Shown here: positions 1,606 through 43,836 of the stretch, one piece after another
Layout: every line of letters starts with the position of its first letter
How positions within the stretch are numbered: the first letter of the stretch is position 1
DNA from: Nemania diffusa
Lineage: Eukaryota; Ascomycota; Sordariomycetes; Xylariales; Xylariaceae
Reading direction: 5' to 3'
Assembly: GCA_038501195.1 (NCBI GenBank)
Contig: JBBPUQ010000004.1
Span: 4,850,001 to 4,914,000 of the forward strand
Length of the DNA stretch: 64,000 bases
Position numbers and translations under genes: made by a program
Notes under the pieces: generated by a model
The model's input: the letters and a program-made list of their open reading frames with translations, nothing else
Told to the model about the DNA's origin: nothing
Database searches by the model: none

Positions 1606-4600
1606 TTATGTAGAAGTGTTGCTGGACCCTGTTCCCGACGATCCAGGACGTTTATCAGTAGAATCCGTCTCTTGGTCGGACGACCCTCTATATTTTCCGA
1701 GACGAAGTTTCTCATCAAGAAGCGATACTAATCGCTCCGAGTACTGGTCTAGGAGACCGTTAAGCATGGTGTCGCTCATCGCCTTGCTTCGTGTCGCTCG
1801 ATCCCCAAGGGCGACTGCTGTGAGGCGTAGTTCTTGGTCGAGTTCAGCCAGTATCTCCTGACTAATAGGATCTGTGGAAGCGAGCTTCTTCCGGTAAGCC
1901 CGAAGGGTTCGACAAGTTTGTTCAGTTGACATATTGAGTGTTCCAAACGACCTTAAGCTACCGTTACTTCTGGTTTTCGCCAAGTTGAGCGCGGGAACGG
2001 AAGGGCGGCGTTTTACTCTAGATTTAGGGCTGACTGGGGGACTGCCCGACGGCATGCCAGATGGTCGTCGTGATGGCGTATCCTCGGCAATGACATGAGC
2101 TGGACTCGATGATTGTGCAGCCAAAGGCGTTTTGGCCGGTGTAGATGACAAATTACTAAAATATAGTGATCGTCTCTTGGATAGTGTTCTTGGGGGAGAT
2201 CTGCGACCACCAGCTGCAGATGAAGGACGTTGAAACTCTGCGAGCTCAGATTTGGATAAAACACGTCTTAATGTTGGTCTGTTGACAGGAGTACTAGCAT
2301 CTTTGACGGGGGAGGGATCGCGACTAACAGAACCCCATCCCCGATCTTGCAGATCTATCTCCCAGATCATAATGGTCCCATCAGACCCAACACTTACAAC
2401 CTTTCGATTAGTATCGTCTTCCTCGATCATAGCTACGCCATGTATCGCCTCGGTATGTCCCCACTCTCGGGTAAGGAATTGACCCGTCTGGGTATCGTAC
2501 ATTCTGACCGATTTATCTGTATTGGAGAGACCGAGAAGAAATACTGGCTCTTTTTCGGTAGCGGGACATATTGTGAGCGAATCCAGGATAACGGGATCGG
2601 CGCCACTTTCATCGAAGCACTTGAAAGAGCTTGAAAGTTTTCCTGTGTCAAGATCGAATACATAAACAGACCGCTCCGTCTGAGATACGAAAAGAGTTTT
2701 CCCGTCGGGACCAACAGCCATTGATGTCGGGGATGCTTTCAGGGGAAGTGTTCGGGAAGGAATAGCTGCCATAACATCTGGATCGTCTTCCTTTGTCACT
2801 ATGTCGTGGATTTGTACTGTCCTATCTAACGAACAGGTAATCATTCTATCAGTTGAAGGGATTAAAACCTGGGAGACTCTGGCCGCGAACTCAAGTGTCT
2901 GGAAATGCTCAAAATCTCCGTTGCTCAGTCGATGGAATAGTTGAGCTGTGCGATCACGGCCGCATGATGCAATAAGGAGGTTAGATTTATCCTCGTAAAT
3001 CGTAATGAACTGACAGTCTAAGGAGTGTGCTTTCATAGATGAGACGCATTCCTTCGTGACAAAGTCAACCACTTTGACAAATCCTAATTTATCCCCGGCA
3101 ATAAAAAAATTGCCATCCATAGTTGCACGAATTGTAACCATTTGGTTGACTAGTTCGGGCTCTTCTTCGAAGTAAGCTTCGTCCAGAGGCACCTGGAAAG
3201 TGGATTTAATTGTGCCATCAGTAGACCATAGTACCACTTGGCCTGACTGCGACCAGGTGTAAAATTGAGCGCCCGTTATATTCGATTGAGATAGGCTCCC
3301 AACACCCATGACTGCGTCTCCGTGTCCTGGTATAGGGATTGAGGTTGACTCAACCCTCGATGCTCCTGGTATGTGGTCCCGATCCCAGATGTCAATAGAG
3401 CGGTTAGCGTCAACCGTAACCATTTTGTCTTTTAAGAATCCCAATGCGAGCATCCCGACGCCAGTCGATGGCTCTGTATTGGTTCGGATGCAGGTTGCAG
3501 AACCCTTCAACAGGGACTCTAAGTCAAGTGTTGCGAAATTACCCGATTTGCCGCCAACATAAACGAGGCTATTGCGAATGGCAACGCATGTTGTAACAAA
3601 TCCACTTTCGAGGATATGTGACAACCTCATCTGCTTGCCAGAGTCGTCCAATAAGCACACATCCCCCGTCTCAGAGCAGATGATAGCCTTGGTGTCGTCA
3701 ATAGCGGCAGCACACGAGAATGTGGCCTCAATCATATTGCCAAGCAGAACATTCCTGCCGGGTAGGGTTTTCTGCGGTTGTGCGGCGGGGTTCGCATCTC
3801 CAATAAATTTCTGCTTCACTGGAGAGATCGCCTGCGCTTCATCGATGCGCCAGACCTTCACGTGGCGTACGCCCAAAGTAATGAGATTATTACCTATCCA
3901 TATCATCCCTTTAACATAAGTTGTGCATCTGTTCTGCTGAAATAGCCTCGCCGCACCAGTGCGCGGATCTATCTTCCACACGTAGAGGAAACCATCATTT
4001 GATGATCCGAGGGAGGCGAGGAATTTGGAATCAGGAGACCACGCAACTGCCCTGACGCCATGAGCGTGTTCGCTGATAGAGACCAGTGGAGTGTCAGATG
4101 AGCGGTCCTCCAGGCTATATATCAGAACTCGCGGAGAATAGCCCGTTTCGCCTACGGCGAGAAACCGCCCTTCCTTGCTCAATGCAAGACAGGTTGCAGC
4201 CTTGATGCGCTCTCGACTAGTCCATGTCTTGGAGGTAGGGGATTCCGCCCAGTCGCTCGAACCGAAGGCAGAATCTCGCAAGGAGACCCTATTTCGGCTG
4301 TCATTTGCTTTCGGGGTAGATGGAGTCGCTGTAGAGTAGGGAAGGGCCGGGGTACTGTATACGGGAATTGCTGTCGGTCGTGCTCGGAAGAATCGTTGTC
4401 CATAGTCATCACCATCCACATCAACCACCACAACGGCCCCGCCAGCAATGTAAGCGAAGCAAGATTTGACTGCATCAAAACCAGTGGGAGCAACACATGT
4501 GGTACCAATGACCCGTTTCAAGGAGAGTCGAGAATCAGGTAGCTGGGGAGCTCGGCCACGGTGAGGGGACCGCGTCGGGACAGGCAAGAATGGTGAGTTT

Positions 4601-4641
4601 GCAGGTGTCAACCTCAATCGGTGGGAGGGAGTAGAGGCCAT
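1606..4641 (-). CDS. WD40-repeat protein, WDR62/MAPKBP1-like
   Basis: Single exon, 1011 residues from the ATG at 4639-4641 (protein starts MASTPSHRLRL). The longer open frame upstream is not needed for the domain. The first 50 residues are a basic, Pro/Ser-rich tail. After it come SLKRVIGTTC and an AYIAGGAVVVVDV strand typical of the start of the WDR62/MAPKBP1 propeller, then roughly a dozen WD40 blades to about residue 770. Recognisable blades include VRAVAWSPDSKFLAS, ITCSLDRTVQIHD and VVSVGSDGTIMIWEID. The rest is Ser/Pro/Arg-rich and disordered, with a possible helical segment near the C-terminus. Animal relatives are scaffolds for JNK signalling and spindle poles; the fungal role is unknown to me. 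A generic WD40 protein is the alternative. Convergent with rgp1. Confidence 0.75.
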   Translation of the reverse strand: MASTPSHRLRLTPANSPFLPVPTRSPHRGRAPQLPDSRLSLKRVIGTTCVAPTGFDAVKSCFAYIAGGAVVVVDVDGDDYGQRFFRARPTAIPVYSTPALPYSTATPSTPKANDSRNRVSLRDSAFGSSDWAESPTSKTWTSRERIKAATCLALSKEGRFLAVGETGYSPRVLIYSLEDRSSDTPLVSISEHAHGVRAVAWSPDSKFLASLGSSNDGFLYVWKIDPRTGAARLFQQNRCTTYVKGMIWIGNNLITLGVRHVKVWRIDEAQAISPVKQKFIGDANPAAQPQKTLPGRNVLLGNMIEATFSCAAAIDDTKAIICSETGDVCLLDDSGKQMRLSHILESGFVTTCVAIRNSLVYVGGKSGNFATLDLESLLKGSATCIRTNTEPSTGVGMLALGFLKDKMVTVDANRSIDIWDRDHIPGASRVESTSIPIPGHGDAVMGVGSLSQSNITGAQFYTWSQSGQVVLWSTDGTIKSTFQVPLDEAYFEEEPELVNQMVTIRATMDGNFFIAGDKLGFVKVVDFVTKECVSSMKAHSLDCQFITIYEDKSNLLIASCGRDRTAQLFHRLSNGDFEHFQTLEFAARVSQVLIPSTDRMITCSLDRTVQIHDIVTKEDDPDVMAAIPSRTLPLKASPTSMAVGPDGKTLFVSQTERSVYVFDLDTGKLSSSFKCFDESGADPVILDSLTICPATEKEPVFLLGLSNTDKSVRMYDTQTGQFLTREWGHTEAIHGVAMIEEDDTNRKVVSVGSDGTIMIWEIDLQDRGWGSVSRDPSPVKDASTPVNRPTLRRVLSKSELAEFQRPSSAAGGRRSPPRTLSKRRSLYFSNLSSTPAKTPLAAQSSSPAHVIAEDTPSRRPSGMPSGSPPVSPKSRVKRRPSVPALNLAKTRSNGSLRSFGTLNMSTEQTCRTLRAYRKKLASTDPISQEILAELDQELRLTAVALGDRATRSKAMSDTMLNGLLDQYSERLVSLLDEKLRLGKYRGSSDQETDSTDKRPGSSGTGSSNTST

Positions 4642-6428
4642 CTTAATGCCATGGACTAGAAGGGAAAGCGAGGCGATAATCACGATATACGCAGTAGATA
4701 TGCAGCTCTAGTTCAAATGATACCAAGTACTCTAGAACGTGGTGTGAGAGTCAGGTGGAGAGACATGGGTGCAGTACCCTCTATTTCTGATATCATAGGT
4801 AGGGCAGAAGGTGTAAGTCGAGGGAGACGTAGAGGAGCTGGAGACGATGACTGGGCGAGGTAAGGAGTGAGTTCGTTCCTTCTTGTAGTTACTGTTGGGA
4901 GAGCGAAGGAGGCGCGACGCAGAGCTGCGAAGAGGAAATGTCGGTGAGTGTACGAATGGTAGATATTATTCAAATGCTGAAGAATTGTCAACGATTAGGG
5001 GTTTCAATGGCCATAAGGGAACGGGGTACGATGTCTTAACTTACAATGACGCGAAAGGAATAATTCTTGAGAGTGATTGAACTAAGAAAGCATGAACACG
5101 CAAGGGGAGAAGACAAAGCACACGGAAGAATATTTGCTGTTTGTAAGACAACTGATGGGTGTTCTCGTGTGTTAATTCCTAACTCTCAAAGATGCCTCTC
5201 TAAACAGGTATCATAGGTAGCTCTTCACTTCGAAATCACAGACTCGCCATGAAGAATTGACGATTAGCACGAAGGAGGGAGAAGATGCGGGTGACGACAG
5301 AGGGGCCTTGTTGCTCAACCTCTGCAGTGATCTCTAAAGATACTGAGCAGCAGATATTGTGAGAGACAAGCGAGAGCCCCCCCATGCTGCTGGACCAGCG
5401 ACCAGCCCCATCACAGTGGTATACCATTTTGTTTTGGCAAGGATTGGTATCGAGAAGGAGCTCGTTGACAGGGGAGGTGACGGGGGAGCAACCGAGAACG
5501 CTTGCAGATTGGCTGGTGCCTGAGCTTGGGTGGGGAGTTTGATGAGCAGCTAAGACAGGTTTGGCAAGGTTGGATGGAACTACGGGTCACAGGATCCAAT
5601 GACAACGCAGGCTCTGTTTGCACCGGGCGTCCTTAGGGTTCATCCATCCCGCAAGCTGCAAGTCTAAAGGAACTTATCACACCCGCCAACAATTAGTTTA
5701 TCAACAGCTTTGCAGTGCACTTGGTACTGTAATTAATTGCATGCATGCTCTCGGGTCGCGTTGCTACCCATCCAGTGTACCATAGCTATAAGGACATACG
5801 TCGTTTCTATATCTACCTAGGAGAGAAGTAAGAATCACGAATGTCTCTACGTAGCTAGTCGCAACTAGGTCCGGCAATGCACAGCACCACGCTAGTCTAC
5901 AATGGATATGATCGCCCGCGATATCCTTGGGACCTTATGTACGCAGTACTGGTAGGTACGCTCACAGCATTACCTACATGTAGGTATGCCTTCATCCAAC
6001 GCGATACCCAATCAGCTTAGTCGACAAATATGTATGTAGGTAGGCACGCTGCTCGTTCAAGTCGTGCGTGAACTACTGCGTATATATGTATAGGCAGACT
6101 CAATGCAACAAGCACTGCTGTACATACCTACCTAGTCCTAGGGTTAGCCATCCCAGTCCATAAATGCATAAGCACCCCAAGAAAGGTACTCAAGTGGAGG
6201 ATAGAGTTGTGCTACCATGTAGATATCCCAGATTTATACCTTTAATCCGGAACAACTCATGTGAAGAATGATGAGTTTATGACGGAGAATAAAATGTGCT
6301 GAGGTACAGAATAGCACTAATAGAATTGCTATTTGCAACTCTAGATTCTCAATATGCAAGCCTCAATCGTCTTTTATGTACACACAGAGCAAAGCAAGAA
6401 CAATCCTCGCCAAATATGCACCGGCGCA
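4642..6428. other. Intergenic spacer upstream of the WD40 gene
   Basis: This holds the promoter of the WD40 gene and the 3' end of rrg9. Small open frames on both strands (for example 4713-4991) have no recognisable protein. Several TACCTA/TAGGTA motifs cluster at 5940-6150, including a perfect palindrome at 5971-5986. Confidence 0.5.
5971..5986. repeat. 16-bp perfect palindrome TACCTACATGTAGGTA
   Basis: Read directly from the sequence; it equals its own reverse complement. It belongs to the TACCTA/TAGGTA motif group seen throughout the spacers of this window. Function unknown. Confidence 0.8.
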
Positions 6429-29459: not shown

Positions 29460-31520
29460 TTACAAGGCGTTTCCTATACGCCATTGGTGTTGCGGCGGCG
29501 GTGGCGGCGGCGGGTGCTGCGGCTGCTGCGGCTGACGGTAGCGGCTCTCTCGCGGCTGCCGACGCGTCTCGTAGCCGAGGAGGTCGATATCCCCATCGGC
29601 ATCGACGACGTGGTAGCTGTGGTGGTGATGGTGGTGGTGACGACGCGAATCATTCTCCTTCCCGTAGTTCCCCTCGGCCTTCCCGCCGTCCGCCGAGTGC
29701 CTCGCCGCTAGGTCGGGCCGCGAGCCGCGGTCCTTGAGGTGGTAGGCCTTGCCATTGCCGTGCCAGCGCTCCGGGGCCTTGGGCCTAGAGGGGGAGGCGC
29801 CGGCGCCGCGGTTCGCGTCCGGGAGGGTCTTGAGCGGGGACTGCTGGACGGTCCGCCTCGCCTTGGGAGTCGGGCTCGCCGTCGCGGACGTGCGTCCGCG
29901 GTCTTGGTGCGGGTGGTCCCATTCCCCGTGCCGCTGCGACCGCGGCGTGTCGATGGAGTCCCGGTGGATCACCGTGTCTTCCAGCGACACGCGCTGCCAG
30001 ACGCCCAGCGGGTTCTGCTGCTGCGCCTTGCGGTGGTGCGCGGCGCGGATCTTGCTGTCGGAGCGTCCGGCGGAGGAGCCGCGCCGCTGCGGCCGGGCCG
30101 TCGTCTCCCGTTCGCGCTCGCGCTCGCACTCGCGCTCGATGGTCCTCGTGCGCCCGCGGACGGACTGCGTGAGGTTGTACGAGAATGTCCTGCGGGGACG
30201 TCGTGCCCTCGTGGCGGAGCTGTCTCTCTCCTGGGCCGGCCTCTCGCTCTTCCACTCGTTATGGCCTGCTGCGGTCGTCTCCGGCGCAGCTGGCGATGGC
30301 GAGCGCAGGCGGATGGGGCGCTCGTTGGGATGGAGCGATCCGCCCGATGTGACGGACGGGGTGAGGTGTACGATTCCGTCCGCGGCTGTGTGGTGGTGGT
30401 TTGGGTGTTGGGTCGCGGACGCGGCATTCTTGTGGCTGGCTTCGTTGGAGGCTTGGAAGGTCGCGGAGGGCATCTCTCGTAACTTCTTAGCCACCCTCCT
30501 AAGGGGCTGTGAGAAGTACGAGGTAGAACCAGAGGACTGTGGCTCCGGAGAGACAACGGGTGTCTCATCGGAGTCACCGCGTGTACGCTTGCGACCGCGC
30601 AGCGTGTGGCGCGAGTCGCTAGTGTGGAGGTCTGGGATCGAAGGCCTGAATAACGATGATAGAGATGTGCGCGGTGCTGCCGCAGCTGGCATCATGGGTG
30701 GCGCATATTCCCGACTGCTCTTGCCTGCAGGGCTCGGGCTCGGCATTGCGCCTGGCATAGGCGACACGGAGCCAGAACGAGGAGTTCCGCGGATAGACGA
30801 TAGTCTCATCCGAGGGCGAGGTGCAGGCTGGTTATCTATAGGCATGACAGGCGTCTGTCGGCCTCCCGCGGCCGCCGTTGGGGGAGCATGTCGTGTAGAT
30901 TGTATAGCGTGGGATTGGAAGAAGCCCGAGGCTACAAGCTGGTTATACGAAGCCAGCACGTCGTCTCGTGATGGCCGGTCTGACAATCCCCTTGGATTCG
31001 GCAGCATCTGAGCAATGTTGACTTCGGACTGCGTCCTGCCCGCGTGCATATATTCGGGTCGGGGAGGCACCGGCGCGTGATTGTTCTGTATCGGTTCTTG
31101 CAGACTGCTGTGCTTCCTACGCACTTCTTGCTGCTTCGAAGCTGGGCCATGATGGCCTCCTCCTGCTGCTCTATGAAACAGGACATCACGAACGCGACCG
31201 AAGAATCCCGTCGATTTCTTGTGAATGACGCCACGCTGCTGTTGCTGTTGTTGTTGCTGTTGAGCCTGTTGCGGCTCCTGCACATCGACGGGCCGATGTA
31301 TCGCAGAGGCCGAGAAAGGCCGTGGCCTGCGCGCTTCGTGAAGCGTCGGGGGCTCCTGGGAGAATTGATTCTCGTAGTCTTTAAGCTGCTCGGGGCCTAG
31401 GAATTGAGCGGGCGGCGCGGCACTGGTCCTGTCATTCATGGATCCCTCTTGGAACCGCGACGTGGACGGTCTAGAGCCGCTAGCGGTTCGTGTCGGTGGC
31501 CGTCCGAGCTCTGACGCCAT
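29460..31520 (-). CDS. Disordered low-complexity protein, function unknown
   Basis: Single exon, 686 residues from the ATG at 31518-31520 (MASELGRPPTRTAS). I do not recognise a catalytic domain. Visible features are a run of nine or so Gln after residue 85, a short hydrophobic/basic patch STGFFGRVRDVLF (about 104-116), a possible helix DDVLASYNQLVASGFF (about 185-200), an Arg/Glu repeat (ERECERERERE), a His run and a Pro run near the C-terminus. Overall it is rich in Ser, Arg, Pro and Gln and probably mostly unstructured. The two patches could be conserved short motifs. The coding region is markedly GC-rich, which creates long open frames on the opposite strand that I treat as shadows. It ends only about 0.6 kb from the AT block on its upstream side. 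Confidence 0.7.
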   Translation of the reverse strand: MASELGRPPTRTASGSRPSTSRFQEGSMNDRTSAAPPAQFLGPEQLKDYENQFSQEPPTLHEARRPRPFSASAIHRPVDVQEPQQAQQQQQQQQQRGVIHKKSTGFFGRVRDVLFHRAAGGGHHGPASKQQEVRRKHSSLQEPIQNNHAPVPPRPEYMHAGRTQSEVNIAQMLPNPRGLSDRPSRDDVLASYNQLVASGFFQSHAIQSTRHAPPTAAAGGRQTPVMPIDNQPAPRPRMRLSSIRGTPRSGSVSPMPGAMPSPSPAGKSSREYAPPMMPAAAAPRTSLSSLFRPSIPDLHTSDSRHTLRGRKRTRGDSDETPVVSPEPQSSGSTSYFSQPLRRVAKKLREMPSATFQASNEASHKNAASATQHPNHHHTAADGIVHLTPSVTSGGSLHPNERPIRLRSPSPAAPETTAAGHNEWKSERPAQERDSSATRARRPRRTFSYNLTQSVRGRTRTIERECERERERETTARPQRRGSSAGRSDSKIRAAHHRKAQQQNPLGVWQRVSLEDTVIHRDSIDTPRSQRHGEWDHPHQDRGRTSATASPTPKARRTVQQSPLKTLPDANRGAGASPSRPKAPERWHGNGKAYHLKDRGSRPDLAARHSADGGKAEGNYGKENDSRRHHHHHHHSYHVVDADGDIDLLGYETRRQPRESRYRQPQQPQHPPPPPPPQHQWRIGNAL

Positions 31521-32060
31521 GATGGATGAAGAACCCCAACTGATTTAACGGAATGGATTAGATGCTTTGACTTTTGTGGCTTTCGTTCTTTTCTTGCTTC
31601 TATGAGGCTTTTTTTTGGATTGAGCAAGTTGAGAGAGACAATTGAGGTGTGTGGATGTTTTCAAGCCCCGGATTAGGTATCGATTATCTAGCAACGCTCT
31701 CTCAGTCGTGGTTAGCTTGGCCCAAGTGAGCCAGGGGTAGGTGTATGTTTTGATTGAGTTGGCATGGACAATTGTGGTTGATGGGACAACCAACAGTGAA
31801 TAAAACCATACAAGGCCTACCTCCTAGTGGAGTCTCATCATACCCGGGGTAACCATATTCGGCAGTACCTTGAACAGAGGGGCCTGACAATCCGACCAGT
31901 ACCCCCCTAGACCCATATAATTAGGCAACAGCCTTCTGACCAATAGGATTGTAGAAGGTGCCCCCACCCGACCAGTAGCCACCTAGTTGATAATTTACTT
32001 CTTCTACTTCCTTCAATCCCTCCTACCTCTATTTTTTCTACAACTACTTCCTACTATCCA
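31521..32060. promoter_or_regulatory. Upstream region of the disordered-protein gene and left shoulder of the AT block
   Basis: Holds the promoter of the minus-strand gene. Base composition is normal until about 32,000. It carries GACCAGTACCCCC at 31894-31906 and ACCTTGAACA at 31867-31876, both of which recur on the other side of the AT block. Confidence 0.45.
31894..31906 (+). repeat. Left copy of 13-bp inverted flank repeat
   Basis: GACCAGTACCCCC; the exact reverse complement is at 41367-41379, so the two face each other across the AT block. Read directly from the sequence. Confidence 0.7.
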
Positions 32061-32100
32061 CTACTACTACCAACACTACTACTACTGCTACTACTACTAC
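32061..32100 (+). repeat. CTA trinucleotide microsatellite at left border of AT block
   Basis: A near-continuous CTA/ACT run with two interruptions immediately precedes the change to almost pure A+T. It follows a pyrimidine-rich stretch from about 31,995. Confidence 0.8.
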
Positions 32101-33805
32101 TGCTTAAATGTTTAACTTTAGAAGCTAAATATATAACAATTAATTTATAATCAATTAATAATTAATAATAAATTGATTAAAAATCGATTTATTAATATAT
32201 ATAGTATGTATATATTAAATATAGCACTTTTACTAAGTGTTTAAAAAGTTTGCTTGTTTATAAGTTAAATAAAGTAAAATATACAATATTCGATTATTAA
32301 TCGATAATTATTTAATTATTAATTAATTATAAAATAAAAATTTTATTATTGCTTTTAGCAAACTGTTTTGCTATGTTTGTTTAAGTAGTATTAGCAGTAG
32401 TAACAACAAAAATAACAAACTTACTGTTATTTGTTTAAATATTATAAATATTTAACATTTGATTATTAATTAATAAACAATTAATTATTAATTGATTATA
32501 GTATAAACAACTTTAAGCTTTCAATTTGTACAACTATTTAAAAAAAAGTTATATATTTAAAATTGCGTTATTTGTGCTTAAAACTATAAATATAAAACAA
32601 CATTATATTACTGATTATAAAATATAATATTTAATTACTATTTAATTATTAATTAATTACTAATTAAATTAAGCTTTTATAAATATATTATAAAACATAT
32701 TAACAAAAATATAACTGCAGTAGCTGCTATAGAACTACTTAAATAAGTATTAATTAATTAACAATTAATTTTTAATTAATTATTAATTAAATTTAATATT
32801 TAATTTATTACTAATATATTTATTAAGTTTTTTTACTACTAAATTAATAAATATATTACTAAACGTTAAAATTAAAAATTTAATTCTAACGAAAATTAGT
32901 TGTTTATAGTTCTTTATTATAAAATATATATCGATTAAAATTCGATTATTAATTAATTGTTAATTGATTACTGTATAAAATAATAAAATTATTAGTACTT
33001 TTATATATAAGTTAGTTTATTATATTAACTATACATATAAAAATTATATTATAACTAGTTATAAAACTAAAAGTATATATTTTAATTAGTATTTAATTAA
33101 TATTCGATTTGTTTTTAATTACTAATTAATTATTACAAACTGTTTTTTTTAAAAGTTTAATAATATATGTTTAATTTAAAAAAAATTTATAATATTTATT
33201 AATAAAAATTTTAATAATAAGCTTTTTGTTACAAATAACAGTACTTTTAATAAACTAAAAATGTTTGTAAACGTTATTAACAGCAGTAAAACTTTAACTG
33301 TAAAACTTATAATTATTAAATAAATTATTCAAAAAAAACTAATAAACTTAAAATTTAATAATTAATTAATTATTAATTAATTATTTATATATTGTACTAG
33401 TTTAACAGCATTAAAAAGTTTAAATGTTTTTGCTAATATTTAATTAATAATAAATAATTAATTAATTATTTTAAAATATAAATACTTAAATGTTTTAAAA
33501 TTTCATTTAATAAAAAAGCAAAAACTAAAACATTAAAAATTTTGATTTATAAATAAAAAACATTAAATTTTAATCGATTATTAATTGATTATTACATAAA
33601 TAACAAAATTTTTAAATGCAAAAGCAAATACTATTACGTTTTTTATATTAACTAGTATACTTAAATAAATATATAAATATTTAATATTGAATTACTTTTT
33701 AATTATTAATTAATTAAAAGTAATAACAAAATAAAAATACTTAGTTTAAAATTAAAATTAATTGATTTGTTATCAATTATTAATTAAATATTATATAATA
33801 TAAGT

Positions 33806-34030
33806 TTTATTATAGATATATTTGTAAGTAATATATATGTTATTAATTAATAGCTAATCAATTATTAATTAAATACTGCAGTTTATACTTAGAAAAAATC
33901 GTAGTAAATATTATATATATATATTGTTAATTAATAACTAATTAATTATTAATCAAAACATAAATATAAATAAAATAGTTTTGTTTTATATTTTAATATT
34001 TATATAGTTATTTTATTAATTATAATTATT
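33806..34030 (+). repeat. Left arm of large inverted repeat
   Basis: About 225 bp that aligns without gaps, as reverse complement, to 37141-37360. Shared landmarks are TTTGTAAGTAATATATAT, CTGCAGTTTATA (TTGCAG in the other arm), AGAAAAAATCGTA and TAAAATAGTTTTGTTTTATA. The differences I found are transitions. Confidence 0.85.
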
Positions 34031-34620
34031 ATAGTTATTATTATTGTTTTATTTATTATAATTATTATAGTTATTATTATTGTTTTATTTATTATAATTA
34101 TTATAGTTATTATTATTGTTTTATTTATTATAATTATTATAGTTATTATTATTATTTTATTTTTTATATTTATTATAGTTATTATTATTATTTTATTTTT
34201 TATAATTATTATAGTTATTATTATTGTTTTATTTATTATAATTATTATAGTTATTATTATTATTTTATTTTTTATATTTATTATAGTTATTATTATTGTT
34301 TTATTTATTATAATTATTATAGTTATTATTATTGTTTTATTTATTATAATTATTATAGTTATTATTATTATTTTATTTTTTATATTTATTATAGTTATTA
34401 TTATTATTTTATTTTTTATATTTATTATAGTTATTATTATTATTTTATTTATTATAATTATTATAGTTATTATTATTGTTTTATTTATTATAATTATTAT
34501 AGTTATTATTATTATTTTATTTTTTATATTTATTATATTTATTATAATTAATATTATTATTTTATTTTTTATATTTATTATATTTATTATAGTTATTATT
34601 ATTGTTTTATTTTTTATATT
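34021..34620 (+). repeat. 36-bp higher-order satellite, left array
   Basis: The marker ATAGTT recurs at 34031, 34067 and 34103, exactly 36 bp apart, and continues with small variants. Each 36-bp unit consists of four 9-mers: TTATTATAA, the same with final G, one ending TTA, and a diverged TTGTTTTAT. Length variation increases towards the inner end. Confidence 0.85.
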
Positions 34621-35900
34621 TATTATATTTATTATAGTTATTATAATTTATATAGTTATTATATTTATTATTTTTAATATATTTATTATATTTAATATAT
34701 TTATTATAATTATTAATATTGTTTTATTTTTTATATTTATTATAGTTATTATAATTAATATAATTATTATATTTATTATATTTAATATATTTATTATATT
34801 TATTATATTTATTATATTTATTATATTTATTATAATTAATATAATTATTATATTTATTATATTTAATATATTTATTATATTTATTATATTTATTATAGTT
34901 GTTATAATTAATATAATTATTATATTTATTATATTTATTATAGTTAATATAGCTATTATATTTATTATATTTAATATATTTATTATAGTTATTATATTTA
35001 TTATATTTATTATATTTATTATATTTATTATATTTATTATAATTATTATAGTTATTATAATTATTATATTTATTATATTTATTATAGTTATTATATTTAT
35101 TATAGTTATTATTATTATTTTATTTTTTATAGTTATTATATTTATTATTTTTAATATATTTATTATATTTAATATATTTATTATATTTATTATAGTTATT
35201 ATATTTATTATTTTTAATATATTTATTATATTTTATATATTTATTATAATTATTATAGTTATTATATTTATTATATTTATTATATTTATTATAGTTATTA
35301 TTATTATTTTATTTTTTATATTTATTATAATTATTATAGTTAATATAGTTATTATATTTAATATATTTATTATAGTTATTATATTTATTATATTTATTAT
35401 ATTTATTATAGTTGTTATAGTTATTATAATTATTATATTTATTATATTTATTATAGTTAATATAGCTATTATATTTATTATATTTAATATATTTATTATA
35501 GTTATTATATTTATTATATATATTATTTTTAATATATTTATTATATTTATTATAGTTATTATAGTTATTATTATTATTTTATTTATTTTATTTATTATAT
35601 TTATTATATTTATTATAGTTATTATTATTATTTTATTTTTTATAATTATTATAATTAATATAATTATTATAATTATTATAATTATTATATTTATATTAGT
35701 TAATATATTTATTATAATTATTATAATTATTATAATTATTATATTTATATTAATTAATATATTTATTATAATTATTATAATTATTATAATTATTATAATT
35801 ATTATAATTATTATAATTATTATAATTATTATATTTATATTAGTTAATATATTTATTATAATTATTATAATTGTTATATTTATTATAATTATTATAGTTA
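34621..35900 (+). repeat. 9-bp satellite (TTATTATAT/TTATTATAA), inner left array
   Basis: The 36-bp period breaks down here into runs of the basic 9-mer, for example around 34790-34840 and 35765-35835, mixed with 12-bp variants (TTTAATATATT). No counterpart of this inner part exists on the right side, so the core is asymmetric. Confidence 0.8.
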
Positions 35901-36345
35901 TTATAAATATTATTAATTAATATAATTTTTTTTTTAAAAAAAATATTAATATTTATTTAAATAAATTAATATATATAATTAATATATTATTAAATTAAAA
36001 TATATTATTTAAAATAATACTATATATTAAATTTAAAAATATAATAATAAAATAATAAAGCTAGTTTAAAATTAATTAAAAAAAATATATTTAATATAAA
36101 TTTTAATTTATTTTTATTATTTATTTTCATTTTATTATTAATAAAATTTATTATAATATAATGTTTTTTTTTATTAAAATAATTTTTTTATTTAATTATA
36201 TTATAAATTATTAATAATAAAATAATAATAATATTTATATTAAATATTATAATTAATATTATAAAAAAAGATTTATATAATATAATAATAACAAATTATA
36301 TATAAATTAAATATATTTTTAATTTATTTATATATATAAACAGAA
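35901..36345. other. Central spacer of the inverted repeat
   Basis: Non-repetitive sequence with very few G or C bases, including A and T runs of 8-10, between the left satellite and its mirror image. This would be the loop if the arms paired. Nothing recognisable is encoded. Confidence 0.7.
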
Positions 36346-37140
36346 AATAATAAATATAATAATTATAATAACAATAATAATTATAATAAATATAATAAAT
36401 ATAATAACTATATTAACTATAATAATTATAATAAATATAAAAAATAAAATAATAATAATAACTATAATAAATATAATAAATATAAAAAATAAAACAATAA
36501 TAATAACTATAATAAATATAATAAATATAAAAAATAAAATAATAATATTAATTATAATAAATATAATAAATATAAAAAATAAAATAATAATAATAATTAT
36601 AATAATTATAATAAATAAAACAATAATAATAACTATAATAATTATAATAAATAAAACAATAATAATAACTATAATAAATATAAAAAATAAAATAATAATA
36701 ATAACTATAATAAATATAAAAAATAAAATAATAATAATAACTATAATAATTATAATAAATAAAACAATAATAATAACTATAATAATTATAATAAATAAAA
36801 CAATAATAATAACTATAATAATTATAATAAATAAAACAATAATAATAACTATAATAAATATAAAAAATAAAATAATAATAATAACTATAATAATTATAAT
36901 AAATAAAACAATAATAATAACTATAATAATTATAATAAATAAAACAATAATAATAATTATAATAATTATAATAAATAAAACAATAATAATAACTATAATA
37001 AATATAAAAAATAAAATAATAATAATAACTATAATAATTATAATAAATAAAACAATAATAATAACTATAATAATTATAATAAATAAAACAATAATAATAA
37101 CTATAATAATTATAATAAATAAAACAATAATAATAACTAT
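36346..37140 (-). repeat. 36-bp higher-order satellite, right (mirror) array
   Basis: Same 36-bp unit as the left array but in reverse complement (AATAATAATAACTATAATAA with AATAAAACA at intervals of 36 bp). Regular over most of about 800 bp, with a less regular start near 36,350. Confidence 0.85.
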
Positions 37141-37360
37141 AATAATTATAATTAATAAAATAACTATATAAATATTAAAATATAAAACAAAACTATTTTA
37201 TTTATATTTATGTTTTAATTAGTAATCGATTAACTATTAATTAACAATATATATATATAATATTTATTACGATTTTTTCTAAATATAAACTGCAATATTT
37301 AATTAATAATTAATTAGCTATTAATTAATAATATATATATTACTTACAAATATATTTATA
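37141..37360 (-). repeat. Right arm of large inverted repeat
   Basis: Reverse complement of 33806-34030. Where the arms differ this copy usually has T or A where the left has C or G, but a few positions are reversed (it keeps ATCGAT where the left has ATTAAT), so both copies have decayed independently. Confidence 0.85.
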
Positions 37361-40300
37361 ATATTTGAAAACATATATTTATTTAATAATTTTTTTTTAC
37401 AGCAATATATTTCAATTTTTTTTTAAAAAGCTGTTAAAATATATATTAATTAATTATTAATTAATTAGCTATTAATTAATAATTAATTAACAATTAATAA
37501 CTTATTAATTAGTAATTGATTATTATAGTTTAATAGCTTTTTTAAATATTAGTTCTTTTTTTTTATTTTTTTATTTTAAATCAAATTCAATTTTTTTTTT
37601 TTTGCTAACAACTCTAGCTTTTTTGTATTATTTTTTAATTTTGTTACTTATATTTGTTCTTTTTTTAATTCTAGTTGTATTAATAACATGTTTTTTTCAA
37701 AATTTAAATTTGTATTAACAAATATAACATTTTAATACAAACTATGTTTAATTAACAATTAATTAATAATTAGTTACTAATTAATTGTTAATTGATTAAT
37801 AATTAATACTAACTTTTTTAGCTGTTTTATTTTATATAGTTATTTTATTAATATATTAAACAATTGTACTAAACTAGAAGTACTATATTATAAAAAGTTT
37901 TTTATTTTATTTACAGCTAATAAAAAAAGTTGAAAGCTATTATTGAACTTAATATTATTAAAACTAGTTTGTAAACTTAATAAATATAAAAGCAATTCGC
38001 TGTTAATTTTTCGTTTTTTTAACTTTATAACTAGTTACAATTAGTAATTAATTAGCAATCAATTAATAATTGATTAACAATAAAAACATAAAAAGCACTT
38101 ACTATTTTTTATTATTAAATGTTTAATTTTGTTAGCAAAAAATACAAATTAATAAAAGTACAAAATATTATATTTTTAATAAATAGCTACTAAATCAAAG
38201 TTTTTTTTATTTAGTAACTAATTGTTAATTAATTTATAATTAATTATTAATCGATTAACAATTAATATATAAATAAAACTTATTTTTTAATACATTTTGC
38301 AATATATTAGTATTAACTTTTGTATAAATAGCTTTTTTAGTACTGCACTTTAGCTAAGTTTGTTATTCGAAATAATTGCTTTTAATTATTTCGGTTTATT
38401 TACAAACAATTAAAATTTAATTTGTAACAAATTATAAAGTATACTTTTTGCTTTGTTTAATTTTGTATATATTAAATATATTAATTGCTTATAATCGATT
38501 AGCTATTAATTTTTAATTAATTAGCAATTTAATATTAGCAACATATAAAACTTACTTATTTAATAATTATACAATTTTTGAAACTTTTGTTTAAATTATA
38601 TATATAACAACTCTATATATTAATTAAATGTAGTATTTTGTTTACAATTTTAAATTAAAGTTTAAATAAATTAACAACTAATTAACAATTAATTAATAAT
38701 TAATTAATAATTAAATAGCAATATATTTACTTTACTAATTAACTTTTTAACTTTTTTTTAGTAATAAATTAAACAAAATCGAATTGTTTATTAAACATAC
38801 TAAAGCTATTTTTTATAATAACTATTAATTTTATATAAATAAATTCCTAGTTTTATATATATTAATAAACAATCAATTTTTAATTAATTAGTAATTAATA
38901 ACAATATACTTATTAATAGTTTTTAGTTTTAGTTAATTATAAAGCTAATAAATTTATTTAATACATTAGTAATATATTTTTAAAAAATAATATAACTTTA
39001 TTTATTTTTAAAAATTTAAAAAACAGCTTAAAACATAAAAGTATATATTTTTATCGATTCTAAGTTAATAATAATATAAATTAATATAATATTTAATATT
39101 AGTTAGCAATCGATTAATAATTAATTAACAATTAATTGTTTACTTTATTTAATACTTTTGTTATATATTACTTAAATAATTTTACAATTTTTTTAATTAA
39201 TTAAATGCTTATAATTTATATCGATTGTATAAGTTTGTAAAAATTAAAACAATTTAGCTTGTTTATTATTAAAACAAATAATTATAAAATTTGCAGTATT
39301 TTGAAATATTTTTTAAATATATTATAATTAATTAATAAATAGTTTATAATTAATTATATATTAATTAACAATCAATTAGCAATTAATTACTATTTATTTA
39401 GTTTAATTTACTATTTGTTTGTTTGAACATTTGTTGTATTGCTATTATACTTAATCTAGTTAAAAAATACAATATTTAATACTTTTGTATTAAATATTAA
39501 ATTATATTACTATTAATAAGCAATAAGTAAAAAAATATAAGCTCTTTATTTATGCTTTAATTTTTTAACTAAACATATATAATAAAGTTTTTTAAAAATA
39601 TTACTATTTGATTAGCAATTAATTAGCAATTAATTAATAATTAATCAAAAATCAATTAAAAATTAATACTTACTATATCGCAACTTAGAATTACTAATTT
39701 TTATAATTAATTTTATAATTTTAACTTTTAAACTATTAACTAGTTTATTTAAAAGTAGCAGTAAGTATATATAACATTTATAGCTAATATATAACATATA
39801 AAAATTTAATTTTAAATTTAATAAAATAAAAATATTCCATTTTATGTTGTAATATAGCTAAATTATATTTTTATAGTTTTAAAAATATATATATACTATA
39901 GTAATTAATTAACAATCAATTTTTAATTAAATATTAATTAATTAAAAATTAAATATTAACAACATTTAGTTTAATGTTTAATATTTTGTACTATATAGCA
40001 ACAAAGCACTTTATATATTAATTTTTTTCTAGCTAATATATTTTGCAATAAATTAATTGCAATATTATAATATTGTAAAATATTAGTATAAAAATAGCAA
40101 ATATTGCTTTTTTTGTATAAAAAAAATAATAAGTAAATATACTAAAATAAATATTAAAATGTTACTAAAATTGTTTGTAATAATTAATTAGCTATTAATT
40201 ATTAATTAAATGTTAATTAAATATAGTTATAATATAATTTTTACTTTTAATTTTTTAATAATTTTAAATTAATAGTTTGCTATATATAGTTTATAAAGTT

Positions 40301-41275
40301 TACTTTTTTTTATTGCATTTATATTTTTATATAACTATTTGTACTAATTAATTAGTAATTATATAATAATTAATTAGTAATTAATTAGTAATTAAATAAT
40401 AATATTTATATTAAAACTTTTATATGTTTTTATTAGTTAATTTGCTATTTTATTTCAATTTGTGCTTTTTTTAATTAATTTTAAATCGATTTTAATATTT
40501 TAGTATATTTTATATTCTAAATTTTAAAATTAATATATTTGTATACTTTTATTTTTATATAACTAATTGTTATTTAATTATATTAAATATTATTAAAAAA
40601 TAAAGCTGTAACTTTTTTTTAAAAAATTGTTACTAACTTGTAATATTATATTTAAATAAAAATCGATTAACAATTAATTATAAATCAAACAGCAATCAAT
40701 TAATAATCGATTTATATACTGAATTAAAAAACTTCGCTATTTGTTTTTTTGTTTTTTTTTGCGCTAATACAATATAGCACACTTTTGTTTTATTAACAAT
40801 TAAATAATTAAAAAAACTTAAAACTTAAATAAATGTTTCAGTAGCAACATATTAATTTGTTTGCTTGTTAAATTTTAACAAAATTAGTGTTAATTTTAAA
40901 TTATTTAATTAAAAAAGTTTAGTTAGTTCTGTTAATTTTTAATAATTAATTAGTAATTAATTTTTAATCGATTATTTATTAATTATTTATTAATTACTAC
41001 TAAGTTGTTATTATTACTAAGTTACAATTTGTTTAGTTTTATTAATTTAATAATTACAGTATTAACTTTTTACTATTAACTTACATTATTTAAAAATATA
41101 TTATTAGTTCATTTATTAATTATTAATAAAGTTGCTATTATTGTTTTATTAAATAATATATAATCAAACAATAATTAATTAATAATTAATTAACAAATAT
41201 GTATTTCTTTCAAAAAATGTTGTAATAAAAAAAGTTGCAATTATTTTACAATCTTTCAAAAAGTTGTTCATTTTA

Positions 41276-42066
41276 CTAAAATTGAGCCAACCAGTACTAG
41301 CGATTTAGCGCTGCCGATCGCATCCACTTATTCTACCCGATTAGGGATGTGGTGTAGTGATCAAGAGGGGGTACTGGTCAGGTTGTGTGGGTACACCTTG
41401 AACACAGTACCAGTGCTGTATAGCATATTTTACCCTACTATAAAAGTACCGAGGTCGTCTATCTAAGTACCTACGTATTTCAACATAGACAATTTGTTAC
41501 TAAATTGCATCGTCTAACTACGTGATAATATATGCTTATTCGATATGAGCGGCATCGAAATGGGAACTCGTATTACTATAATAGGAATACTGACTTATAT
41601 AGTAACTCTCGTGTCTGGTTACGTACCATGGGGTAGAATATATTGACTTAAAACACCTACAATTCATCGCTTGACACAGGAAAATCATGTGTCTACTGCA
41701 CCTGATGCACTAATCAACGCCCCCTAAACCGCACCTATACGTCGCTCTCATGACGCATACAGCCATCCACTCCGTGAATACCGAACTACCTCAGCCTCGA
41801 CCCGGCCGCTGGGGGCAAGCATAACCTAGTAAACCCATTCCGTGCTCTAGCCTGCCGTGCTTACACCCCCAGTTCGACAATTGAACTATGAATCAAAATA
41901 ATGAAACGATAACACCATTTTAGTATTTACACCAGTCGAGCGGGGTTGACCCAAACCATTGGAACGCCAATGCGCCCATAACCTAGATTCGTAGCCCGTT
42001 TATGGTCCGCCAACCTATGATAAACCGTAGAAGAATAAAATGTGAAATATGTGCAGCGTAAGGTAT
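41276..42066. other. Right shoulder of AT block and veA 3' flank
   Basis: Normal base composition returns here. It contains the right 13-bp flank repeat (41367-41379) and ACCTTGAACA (41395-41404), and then the presumed veA terminator region. No gene recognised. Confidence 0.5.
41367..41379 (-). repeat. Right copy of 13-bp inverted flank repeat
   Basis: GGGGGTACTGGTC, exact reverse complement of 31894-31906 on the other side of the AT block. Confidence 0.7.
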
Positions 42067-43836
42067 CTATGGTAACCAAAGATGCGATGGTGGAAATGCC
42101 CTTTTGCCGTCTGCCCTAGTATAACTTGACGAAGATGGGAAAATAGGTTGCATTGGTAAACGTTCGCCCCGAACGTCGCGCATTTGCTGTTGATGTGATG
42201 CAAATGATTCGTCCGCCTGTCGTTTAACCTGCCGACTTTCCATTTGGGGGTAGAGGCCGCCTTTCAGTTGATAGGGGGTGTAATCCGAATAGGGTGATGG
42301 TTCGGGGCTGGGGAAATTAATCGACGGAAGAATAGGACGTGGAGTACTCTCCATTGATACGTTAGAGCTGATCGACGATCGTGGCTCCGTGCCCCTGGGT
42401 GGTTTGGCAGAAATAAGAGGATATGAAGTAGAGAGTCTTTTGCTTTCTGCTTCGGGTTGCTGATCGTAGGGCGCATAGGTACTACTCGGGTAACCCGGTG
42501 AAGGAGGGGGTAAGTTTACGCCTTGTCCTTGAGGGAATACAGTCTGCGCGGGAGAGACCGGCGTAGATTGCGGGTTAGAAGCCCCTATAGGCCCATATGA
42601 TGGTTGAGCAAAGCCATTTGTAGGCTGTCCAAAGTTGAGTAGAGCACCTGAGGATTTGCTCGTCTGATATGTTGGTGGAGGCGGGGCAGTAACGTAGTCA
42701 ACATTGGAAGGTCGTCGGTCAGGGAAGGCAGTTCGATCTATGCTAGAGTTGCTCATCGAACGGGCTCGGTATCCCTCAGGCGTCTGTGTTCCACGACGTT
42801 TCGCATATTCGTCTTCAGCATTATTGTTATACTCATCGCCACCCGTTGGCTTAGTAGTAGTATCGCGTCTTCTCATACGGACATCACGCCTGATTCGCAC
42901 ACGGCAACCTTGCTCAGCTACAGTCCGGCTCAGACTCGTGCTCTCGGTGAGGCCTGGGAATTTTTTGGCGCTGAACACTGTAAAATCGGCTGATCTTAGA
43001 TCCATCCTGTGGCATGCATCGGTAGGAAGTTGTACGGCGCCAGACTCAGGTTCTGGAGCGTCCCTGTCGAGATCGCCTTCGTTCTTTATCAACTCGTAGA
43101 GACTAAATACTAGCCGGTATCGTCCCTCGTGTCGTACAGAGAGATCTGGAAACAGGAAATAACCGGCAGGGTCAGGTCGGTCGAGATAGCAGCAGCCCGA
43201 GACAGGGAACCCAGTAAGAACAGGAGGCGATGTGGCCGCTGGAGTTTGTACTCTGCCATGGGCCATTGGGCGTGCATGTTCGAGGGAGGCGTAGCAGAAG
43301 AAATCTACATTGTAGTCAAAGGTGATGTCTCGAGCTCCCTCAAAATTCTCGCCTTCTAATACCCTCAAAATCACAACTGGGGGAGGATCAACGGGACGAC
43401 GGTCGGCAGAAGCTACAATTCATGTTAGCCACATAGATAGATTCGGATCAAGAAAAAGTCACTAACATTTAGGTCCTGAACCACAGGCTCGAGCACGCTC
43501 GGGTTGCTGGAGAACCTCGAGCTGATACCATAACTGTCTTCCGTCTCTGGTAAACCGACGTTCCCGAGAGATGAGTTGCGATTTACCCAGTCGCGATTCC
43601 GGTGCACCCATCATGCCGGGCAAATTTGGGTCGGGCTATAATTAAGAAGCCACGGTTAGTGTTCTGTTTCGACGGCATGAAATAAATCACATCACAAGTA
43701 TCCAGGGAAGACACAGTAGCCATGCATACACCGAACTATCTAATGGGAATTCAGGTATAGATATTCCCCCAGGAGGAAAAGTGCAACATATCTCGGCTTA
43801 ACGAATTAGGCGAGGTCTTACTTGAATAGAAAGCAT
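42067..43836 (-). CDS. veA: Velvet-domain developmental regulator VeA
   Basis: Proposed exons on the minus strand: 43836-43822, 43635-43467, 43412-42067; 509 residues. The second intron (43466-43413) is well supported: GTTAGT/TGTAG in phase 1 rebuilds [17 protein letters not shown]. The velvet domain (about 30-220) has [46 protein letters not shown] (quoted in part), [25 protein letters not shown] and [14 protein letters not shown]. The tail is Pro/Ser/Tyr-rich. VeA with VelB and LaeA couples light to sexual development, conidiation and secondary metabolism in the nucleus. VelC is the alternative; the wording [14 protein letters not shown] and the NSS..RT, RRPS tail fit Fusarium-type VeA as I remember it. 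The 5-codon first exon (MLSIQ) is uncertain; translation could start at 43614 ([10 protein letters not shown]). Confidence 0.82.

Follow-up and report, generated by a model that had tools for sequence, protein, structure and literature searches.

Comparison with described elements

Non-autonomous elements with terminal inverted repeats (TIRs), among them miniature inverted-repeat transposable elements (MITEs), are described from Zymoseptoria tritici (PMC9970103) and Fusarium oxysporum (PMC3599309). Such elements have no coding capacity and are present in many short copies. Both features are shared by a dispersed family of Nemania diffusa, one copy of which accounts for a block of nearly pure A+T in the stretch analysed here (contig JBBPUQ010000004.1, hereafter C4, positions 4850001-4914000; this stretch of 64,000 nucleotides is referred to as the window). 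Judged from its ends, its target-site duplications (TSDs) and its copies elsewhere in the genome, the block forms the body of a DNA transposon that is non-autonomous and occupies positions 31877-41396 of the window. The MITEs of Z. tritici have about 52% GC and are little affected by repeat-induced point mutation (RIP) because they are short (PMC9970103), whereas the interiors of the N. diffusa family have 3-14% GC and six of its copies are longer than 8 kb.

The AT-rich elements (ATEs) of Aspergillus flavus resemble the block: they too are AT-rich insertions of several kb, lie at different sites and diverge mainly by transitions (PMC9910759). They are remnants of Gypsy and other transposons or subtelomeric repeats with an AT content of 70% or more, and some of the RIP-derived classes contain no recognisable transposon (PMC9910759). 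In the present family, in contrast, ends, duplications and movement of a GC-poor body can be documented, TIR and TSD being terms that are missing from the main text of PMC9910759. Two retrotransposon families hit by RIP, RLC_Deimos (PMC9970103) and crapaud (PMC10787394), have expanded again; the copies of the Deimos burst have a higher GC content (PMC9970103), and the authors of the crapaud study raise the possibility of an escape through RIP-driven divergence with mobility kept (PMC10787394). Both are autonomous long terminal repeat elements, whereas in the present case it is a non-autonomous DNA element that spreads, carrying a GC-poor body. The described context of RIP is CpA (PMC12543289), and in Neurospora crassa homology is read by RIP at a periodicity of 11-12 bp (PMC4858203); in the present family, in contrast to N. 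crassa, a 5' T or C raises the mutation rate most and an AT-only core is largely unmutated. Among the reports judged by their titles and the openings of their abstracts, none describes a RIP-worn element that is still moving, and PMC9970103 and PMC10787394 hold related ideas for retrotransposons.

A dispersed family with target-site duplications

The genome searched comprises 55.6 Mb in 16 contigs. The last 224 bp of the left flank of the block were found at five other places, each bordering an AT block, and the six loci could be aligned as a single collinear unit, the ends of which fall, to within a few bases, at 31877 and 41396. The genome harbors 24 paired copies, six of them long (8,340-9,520 bp) and eighteen short (577-847 bp). 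The long copies are that of the window (W), one located 119 kb from it on the same contig (C4a) and four others (C8a, C8b, C9 and C10), and are distributed over four contigs, with two copies each on C4 and C8. Local jumps, with which the proximity of W and C4a may be compared, are common for such transposons. Searches with the left and the right end gave 26 and 25 matches, respectively; two of the left-end matches cover only the CTA-repeat part (query 160-236; the repeat was seen in the one of the two that was fetched), and one right-end match, on C11, is a lone fragment.

Exact TSDs border 23 of the 24 copies, including five of the six long ones, and measure 8 bp in 11 copies, 9 bp in 11 and 10 bp in one. 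The exception is C10, whose flanking sequences (TTGTTAAT and TTATTAGT) have two A/G differences. Since 12 of the 23 are longer than 8 bp, in excess of what chance extension of 8-bp duplications would give (p=0.005), duplications of both 8 and 9 bp appear to be used. The TIRs are imperfect: a core of 14 bases (CYGACCAGTACCCC) is found, inverted, at both ends of the 24 copies, with a mismatch in one end, and the outermost bases of the left and right repeats differ. TSDs and terminal repeats are the features that define MITEs and are present here too; in the narrow sense a MITE is under about 800 bp, a limit that the 18 short copies fit or nearly fit and that the six copies of 8.3-9.5 kb do not. 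Taken together, the TSDs, the shared inverted ends, the collinear long copies and the short copies with related ends argue for a DNA transposon with TIRs.

Some further members and matches deserve mention. One short copy lies at C4:4914140, just beyond the window, and another (C9:2639573-2640419) holds a nested insert of normal GC content with inverted ends of its own (TATCCCTTTGGGTGCCGTTTCGGCTCC), which is apparently another small transposon. Lone remnants of a left end (C2:1002731, 35 bp, 94%) and of a right end (C11:839610, 41 bp, 90%) have no partners and probably represent older, decayed members of the family; no right end was found within the 8.8 kb searched beside the former. A third lone exact match to the end core (C7:3168789) is GC-rich, resembles coding sequence and is probably due to chance.

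Transition-dominated divergence of the long copies

Alignment of the long copies shows that they diverged almost only through C-to-T and G-to-A transitions and in a nearly star-like manner. W and C4a align over 9,520 bp with no gaps and 579 differences, all of them transitions. In the arms of the six long copies, 25 of the 5,774 ungapped columns have transversions or mixed states and 1,289 are of the C/T or G/A type, a count that includes columns with C or G retained throughout. The core has 473 mixed columns among 2,054 ungapped ones, an effect of the unreliable alignment of satellite variants. Agreement between long copies is weak in all pairs (phi 0.13-0.33, with W-C4a highest by little), suggesting that most changes postdate the separation of the copies. 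The composite RIP index reaches 0.22-0.61 in the arms, against -0.17 in the flanks.

The favoured cytosines follow T or C (pooled over the copies, TCA 0.84, TCT 0.87, TCC 0.83 and CCN 0.77-0.92), and TCG (0.63), ACT (0.45) and GCT (0.40) are less favoured. The effect of the 5' T or C is larger than that of the 3' base (per copy, 0.49-0.69 with 3' A versus 0.34-0.57 with 3' T, 3' G being similar). This context fits the composition of the arms, where CC and GG are nearly absent and GC dinucleotides are in 3.4-6.9 fold excess. When every position with C or G in any copy is counted, the long arms reach 22.4% GC and CC has 0.23 times its expected frequency; a site that has lost its C or G in each of the six copies is invisible in this count, so that the ancestor was likely somewhat richer in G/C, and this blind spot accounts for part of the CC deficit. 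Matches to cytosine methyltransferases (PF00145) are present at four loci of the genome; RID, the enzyme of RIP, belongs to this family.

Spared ends and spared core

The ends and the core were examined in W/C4a, the only pair suited to a clean count, with expected counts derived from the sequence contexts of its arms. Of the 122 C/G sites within 120 bp of either end, 9 are discordant against 71.3 expected, a value that leans on a smoothed mean because the C-rich contexts of the ends are rare in these arms. The next 120 bp inward have 20 of 67 sites discordant against 37.6 expected, and beyond 240 bp the level is near normal on both sides. Pooled over the six copies, C-rich contexts are not cold in the arms (CCN and TCC at the rates given above, ACC 0.43, GCC 0.48). 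No C or G has been lost from the outermost 30 bp of five of the six long copies on the left and of four on the right.

In the satellite core, 8 of 105 sites are discordant against 46.3 expected, and core and arms also differ at matched trinucleotides (ACA 1/29 versus 103/205; ACT 5/67 versus 93/243). We read the spared ends as an edge effect of RIP and the spared core as a poor responsiveness of AT-only satellite DNA. Local GC content was considered as the cause of core sparing and set aside, since it has no dose effect within the arms, with the exception of 5 of 15 discordant sites below 8% local GC against about 7.7 expected; composition alone is thus not shown to be responsible. Gladyshev and Kleckner (PMC4858203) report that RIP is modulated by the base composition of homologous units and that a distal part of the repeat escapes in one construct; no test of AT-only DNA was met in the portion of that report consulted.

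Mobility of the GC-poor body

The interiors of 10 of the 18 short copies, the best-aligned ones chosen from the list of pairs, were compared in three groups. In a group of four (C10, C5 and two on C8), each with its own TSD, positions with G or C in any copy amount to 6.6% over the 440 ungapped of 480 interior columns, and the ends of these copies have 48-52% G/C. The two further groups, of three copies each, give 10.0% (389 of 563 columns) and 7.1% (323 of 353 columns). Within the group of four, 16-19 G/C positions are common to the two members of a pair and 7-12 transitions separate them. Each of these copies keeps about 0.7-0.8 of the visible G/C, so that few sites are likely to have disappeared from the whole group, although more loss could be concealed if rates vary strongly among sites. 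Because copies at unrelated sites share GC-poor interiors, the comparison shows for these ten short copies that a GC-depleted body was mobile, and this body predates their spread.

Superfamily affiliation

The superfamily is left open, Mutator-like elements (MULEs) being the nearest by TSD size. MULEs have TSDs of 8-11 bp, and the mixed duplications of 8-9 bp and the ends beginning with G are in line with their traits, whereas the terminal repeats of the present family are short and imperfect and the genome holds no PF10551 match. The strict 8-bp TSD of the hAT superfamily does not agree with the present family, where 11 of the 23 exact TSDs are of 8 bp and 12 are longer. Seven matches to hAT domains, one free of stops, were found in the genome. 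A search with PF18758 (KDZ) was uninformative, with no match in any control. A further 24 sites resemble the end core with one mismatch, which is no more than the chance level, the reversed pattern used as control giving 28 matches. The transposase may have diverged or been lost.

Structure of the element and neighbouring genes

GC content is 47% at 31501-32000, 19% at 32001-32500 and 45% at 41501-42000. Within the block, the arms have 11-15% GC and the centre (34001-37000) 1.6-4.2%. A sliding scan of 100 bp delimits the block at 32062-41308 with abrupt edges, GC falling at about 32,060-32,110 and returning at about 41,280-41,310. A preliminary description of the window had reported a sharply bounded, gene-free A+T block of about 9 kb with an ordered architecture of clusters in the arms, mirrored satellites, a central spacer and inverted arms, all of which is borne out here (9.2 kb by the scan). 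The unit is longer than the extent that it gave, 32105..41275 (Table 1), and its GC-normal ends, TSD and recurrence elsewhere had been missed.

Table 1. Coordinates of the element and of neighbouring open reading frames (ORFs) in the window
Feature	Position	Strand	Basis or remark
Whole element W, 9,520 bp	31877..41396	+	Six genomic copies collinear, stopping at these ends; TSD outside
Left TSD copy CTTGAACA	31869..31876	+	
Right TSD copy CTTGAACA	41397..41404	+	
Left TIR GAGGGGCCTGACAATCCGACCAGTACCCCC	31877..31906	+	Identical in 5/6 long copies; short copies differ at one base
Right TIR, read inward, GTGTACCCACACAACCTGACCAGTACCCCC	41367..41396	-	14-base core common to left end
Left GC-normal end, 224 bp, running into CTA microsatellite (32038-32101)	31877..32100	+	
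Right GC-normal end, 115 bp	41282..41396	+	
Left AT-rich arm, 11-bp-phased AATYRATT clusters, transition-mutated	32101..33807	+	
Core inverted repeat, left outer flank	33808..33984	+	Equals inverted 37187-37363 at 177/177 purine/pyrimidine positions
T-rich 36-bp satellite, left array	33996..35924	+	Tandem Repeats Finder (TRF)
AT-rich central spacer between mirrored arrays	35925..36329	.	
A-rich mirror satellite, right array	36330..37185	-	TRF; inverted self-match 83%
Core inverted repeat, right outer flank	37187..37363	-	
Right AT-rich arm, transition-mutated; spacing of 11-bp-phased clusters mostly 180-310 bp (116-443 overall)	37364..41281	+	
Neighbouring ORF, 686 aa, no Pfam match	29460..31520	-	Element 356 bp upstream of ATG
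Neighbouring velvet-factor ORF	42067..43266	-	

TRF identified the mirrored satellites as one 36-bp family, along with many arrays of 11-bp period. The flanks of the core agree in purine/pyrimidine sequence over all of their 177 positions when one is inverted, the next-best place in the element reaching 67%; this full agreement is found in W, C4a and C10, and C8a has 176 positions equal. Between the left and right flank these four copies have 10-14 transitions and no transversions. For C9 and C8b, no ungapped inverted match is better than 136/177, still above the 67% background, and the right flank of these copies was probably altered through an indel or partial loss. Over element positions 1932-5487 the inverted self-match is 83%. 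By this symmetry the satellite core is an inverted duplication; although it could form a hairpin, we see no need to postulate a function for it. RRTYRATY sites in the arms are spaced by multiples of 11 bp (30 pairs at 11, 16 at 22 and 11 at 33), other spacings up to 30 bp having at most three pairs each. In the arms of the window this phasing forms 24 clusters of at least two sites (for example 37444-37525 and 40345-40403), and it stands beside the homology periodicity of 11-12 bp in RIP (PMC4858203), whose recognition step it might aid or hamper.

No gene was found in the block, reading frames of more than 184 codons being confined to the satellite core in each of the six long copies. The longest in W has 648 codons and no Met, shuffled W giving at most 94 codons. 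This frame, found in W and C4a, was rejected as a gene, since it lacks a Met, is an artefact of a triplet repeat in the satellite and lies where long frames are open on both strands. The period-3 power of the purine/pyrimidine sequence is at noise level in the right arm (mean 0.79, 11 scanning windows) and above noise in the left arm (mean 2.90, 5 scanning windows; 2.2-4.1 in three coding controls). The left arm is not read as a coding remnant, because its period-3 phase is not constant, an argument that falls short of proof. Among the neighbours, the 686-aa ORF is GC-rich (59-71%), and the element may affect its promoter, given the proximity of the start codon. The product of the velvet-factor ORF matches a Hypoxylon argillaceum protein at 100% identity along 399 aa and a Nemania sp. 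protein at 91%; this points to a Xylariaceae-like ascomycete, although a single protein is not enough to settle the species.

Proposed mechanism and alternative explanations

These features are very probably explained jointly by the interior of a non-autonomous cut-and-paste transposon that was worn by RIP, spared at its edges, built around an AT core poor in cytosine and mobile in its worn form. A transposase made elsewhere would move any copy with intact ends, and after insertion the repeat would be mutated by RIP in the sexual cycle. As RIP would weaken within about 200 bp of the edge of a repeat, the terminal repeats would be preserved even as G and C disappear from the body, which could jump again in its worn state. 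Satellite expansion and inverted duplication would have filled the centre with near-cytosine-free DNA that is now hardly changed by RIP.

Several observations weigh against this explanation. No autonomous partner is present among the exact matches to the end core (24 pairs and three lone sites). The MULE transposase domain PF10551 gave no match in the genome, in a search whose controls gave matches in 3 of the 14 genomes, with no fungus named among them. Both C10 and C8b carry clearly mutated ends. The mutation context differs from that of textbook RIP, as the 5' T or C outweighs the 3' A, and sites lost in all six long copies escape the comparison. Among the short interiors, the 11 pairs with more than 90% of their length aligned have 101 transitions against 111 transversions; as transitions do not exceed transversions, RIP is not dominant in the short interiors and is not the proven origin of their AT body. 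The edge and core counts come from a single pair, the expectation for the C-rich ends is a smoothed one, and edge sparing could be due to selection on the ends if each lineage moved again after RIP.

The latter possibility assumes that only copies with intact ends jump, so that the survivors would have been mutated before their last move and would have GC-normal ends through selection. The ends are the parts that a transposase must read, and the retention of C and G in the outermost 30 bp of most long copies agrees with it. However, the changes are nearly star-like, so most of them postdate the separation of the copies. On both sides the gradient runs smoothly over about 200 bp, more than the width of a binding site, and two copies (C10 and C8b) have mutated ends. 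We regard selection on the ends as the less likely explanation. Alternatively, the AT content may be intrinsic, the element having grown from AT-only satellites and 11-bp arrays, with RIP only adding to it in the long copies. This has an appreciable chance of being right, although we do not favour it: the core has 3-6% GC, the short interiors are satellite-like with 3-9% GC (25% in the short C9 copy, because of its nested insert), transitions are not in excess in these interiors and the any-copy count for the long arms reaches no more than 22% GC. On the other hand, pure transitions are removing C and G from the long arms, and the rarity of CC and GG there agrees with the mutation context, though part of the any-copy deficit is the blind spot mentioned above. 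An AT island taken for comparison (L039) has 49 G/C in 1.2 kb, too few for CC counts.

The preliminary description had compared the block with small regional centromeres, while allowing equally for a heterochromatic repeat island or a replication or fragile site. In the centromere reading, the AT block with its mirrored satellites would be the CENP-A site of the chromosome. The AT-rich centre, the symmetric inverted arrays and the gene-free block would suit such a function, but six such blocks are present on four contigs, five of them with exact TSDs. Two lie on C4 and two on C8, which refutes a feature occurring once per chromosome. The description had itself taken one block per chromosome as suggestive of centromeres, a test that the idea fails, and to the six long copies are added eighteen scattered short ones, with exact TSDs in 23 of the 24. 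Moreover, a separate AT island on C4 (C4:193000-222299), with 2, 3, 5, 43 and 9% GC in samples at 193, 199, 208, 214 and 222 kb (2-9% in four of the five), is by composition a better centromere candidate, and we regard a centromeric role for the block as extremely improbable. A further AT island is found at C8:1540000-1554600, where the GC content of samples is 20% at 1540 kb, 7% at 1550 kb and 1% at 1554 kb, against 52% at 1560 kb; from their composition, it is plausible that both islands are centromeres or large RIP-affected regions. An assembly artefact, in which the assembler would have inserted or duplicated low-complexity AT sequence, comes to mind because AT-only repeats are hard to assemble, but the six copies are collinear, differ in their flanks, have exact TSDs in five cases and carry changes specific to single copies, which leaves next to no room for it. 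The order of a transposon, which the preliminary description could not see, is present in the terminal ends, the TSD and the common body. Its fallback of a repeat island was right in kind, the block belonging to a dispersed repeat with RIP-like change, and the GC and RIP indices that it had proposed give a sharp GC drop and the higher composite index of the arms reported above.

Implications

RIP is usually described as ending the life of a transposon. Since a GC-emptied body has moved, as the sequence comparison of the short copies indicates, loss of coding and loss of mobility appear to be separable. We tentatively suggest, as an idea that may well not hold, that the element has become hardened against the RIP of its host, as it contains almost no cytosine and a blind zone at the edges keeps its ends working. 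If this is true, the outcome of RIP for such an element would not be death but a hardened AT-only form that is still mobile.

The W/C4a pair offers two natural experiments, one in which RIP-like change fades over about 200 bp at the edges and one in which an AT-only satellite is nearly skipped, and both bear on how RIP recognises homology. The locus also calls for caution with symmetric multi-kb AT blocks in fungal assemblies, which need to be checked for ends and TSDs before they are labelled centromeres. More generally, RIP has weak spots at the edges of repeats and in AT-only DNA, and an emptied yet mobile transposon may be what they leave.

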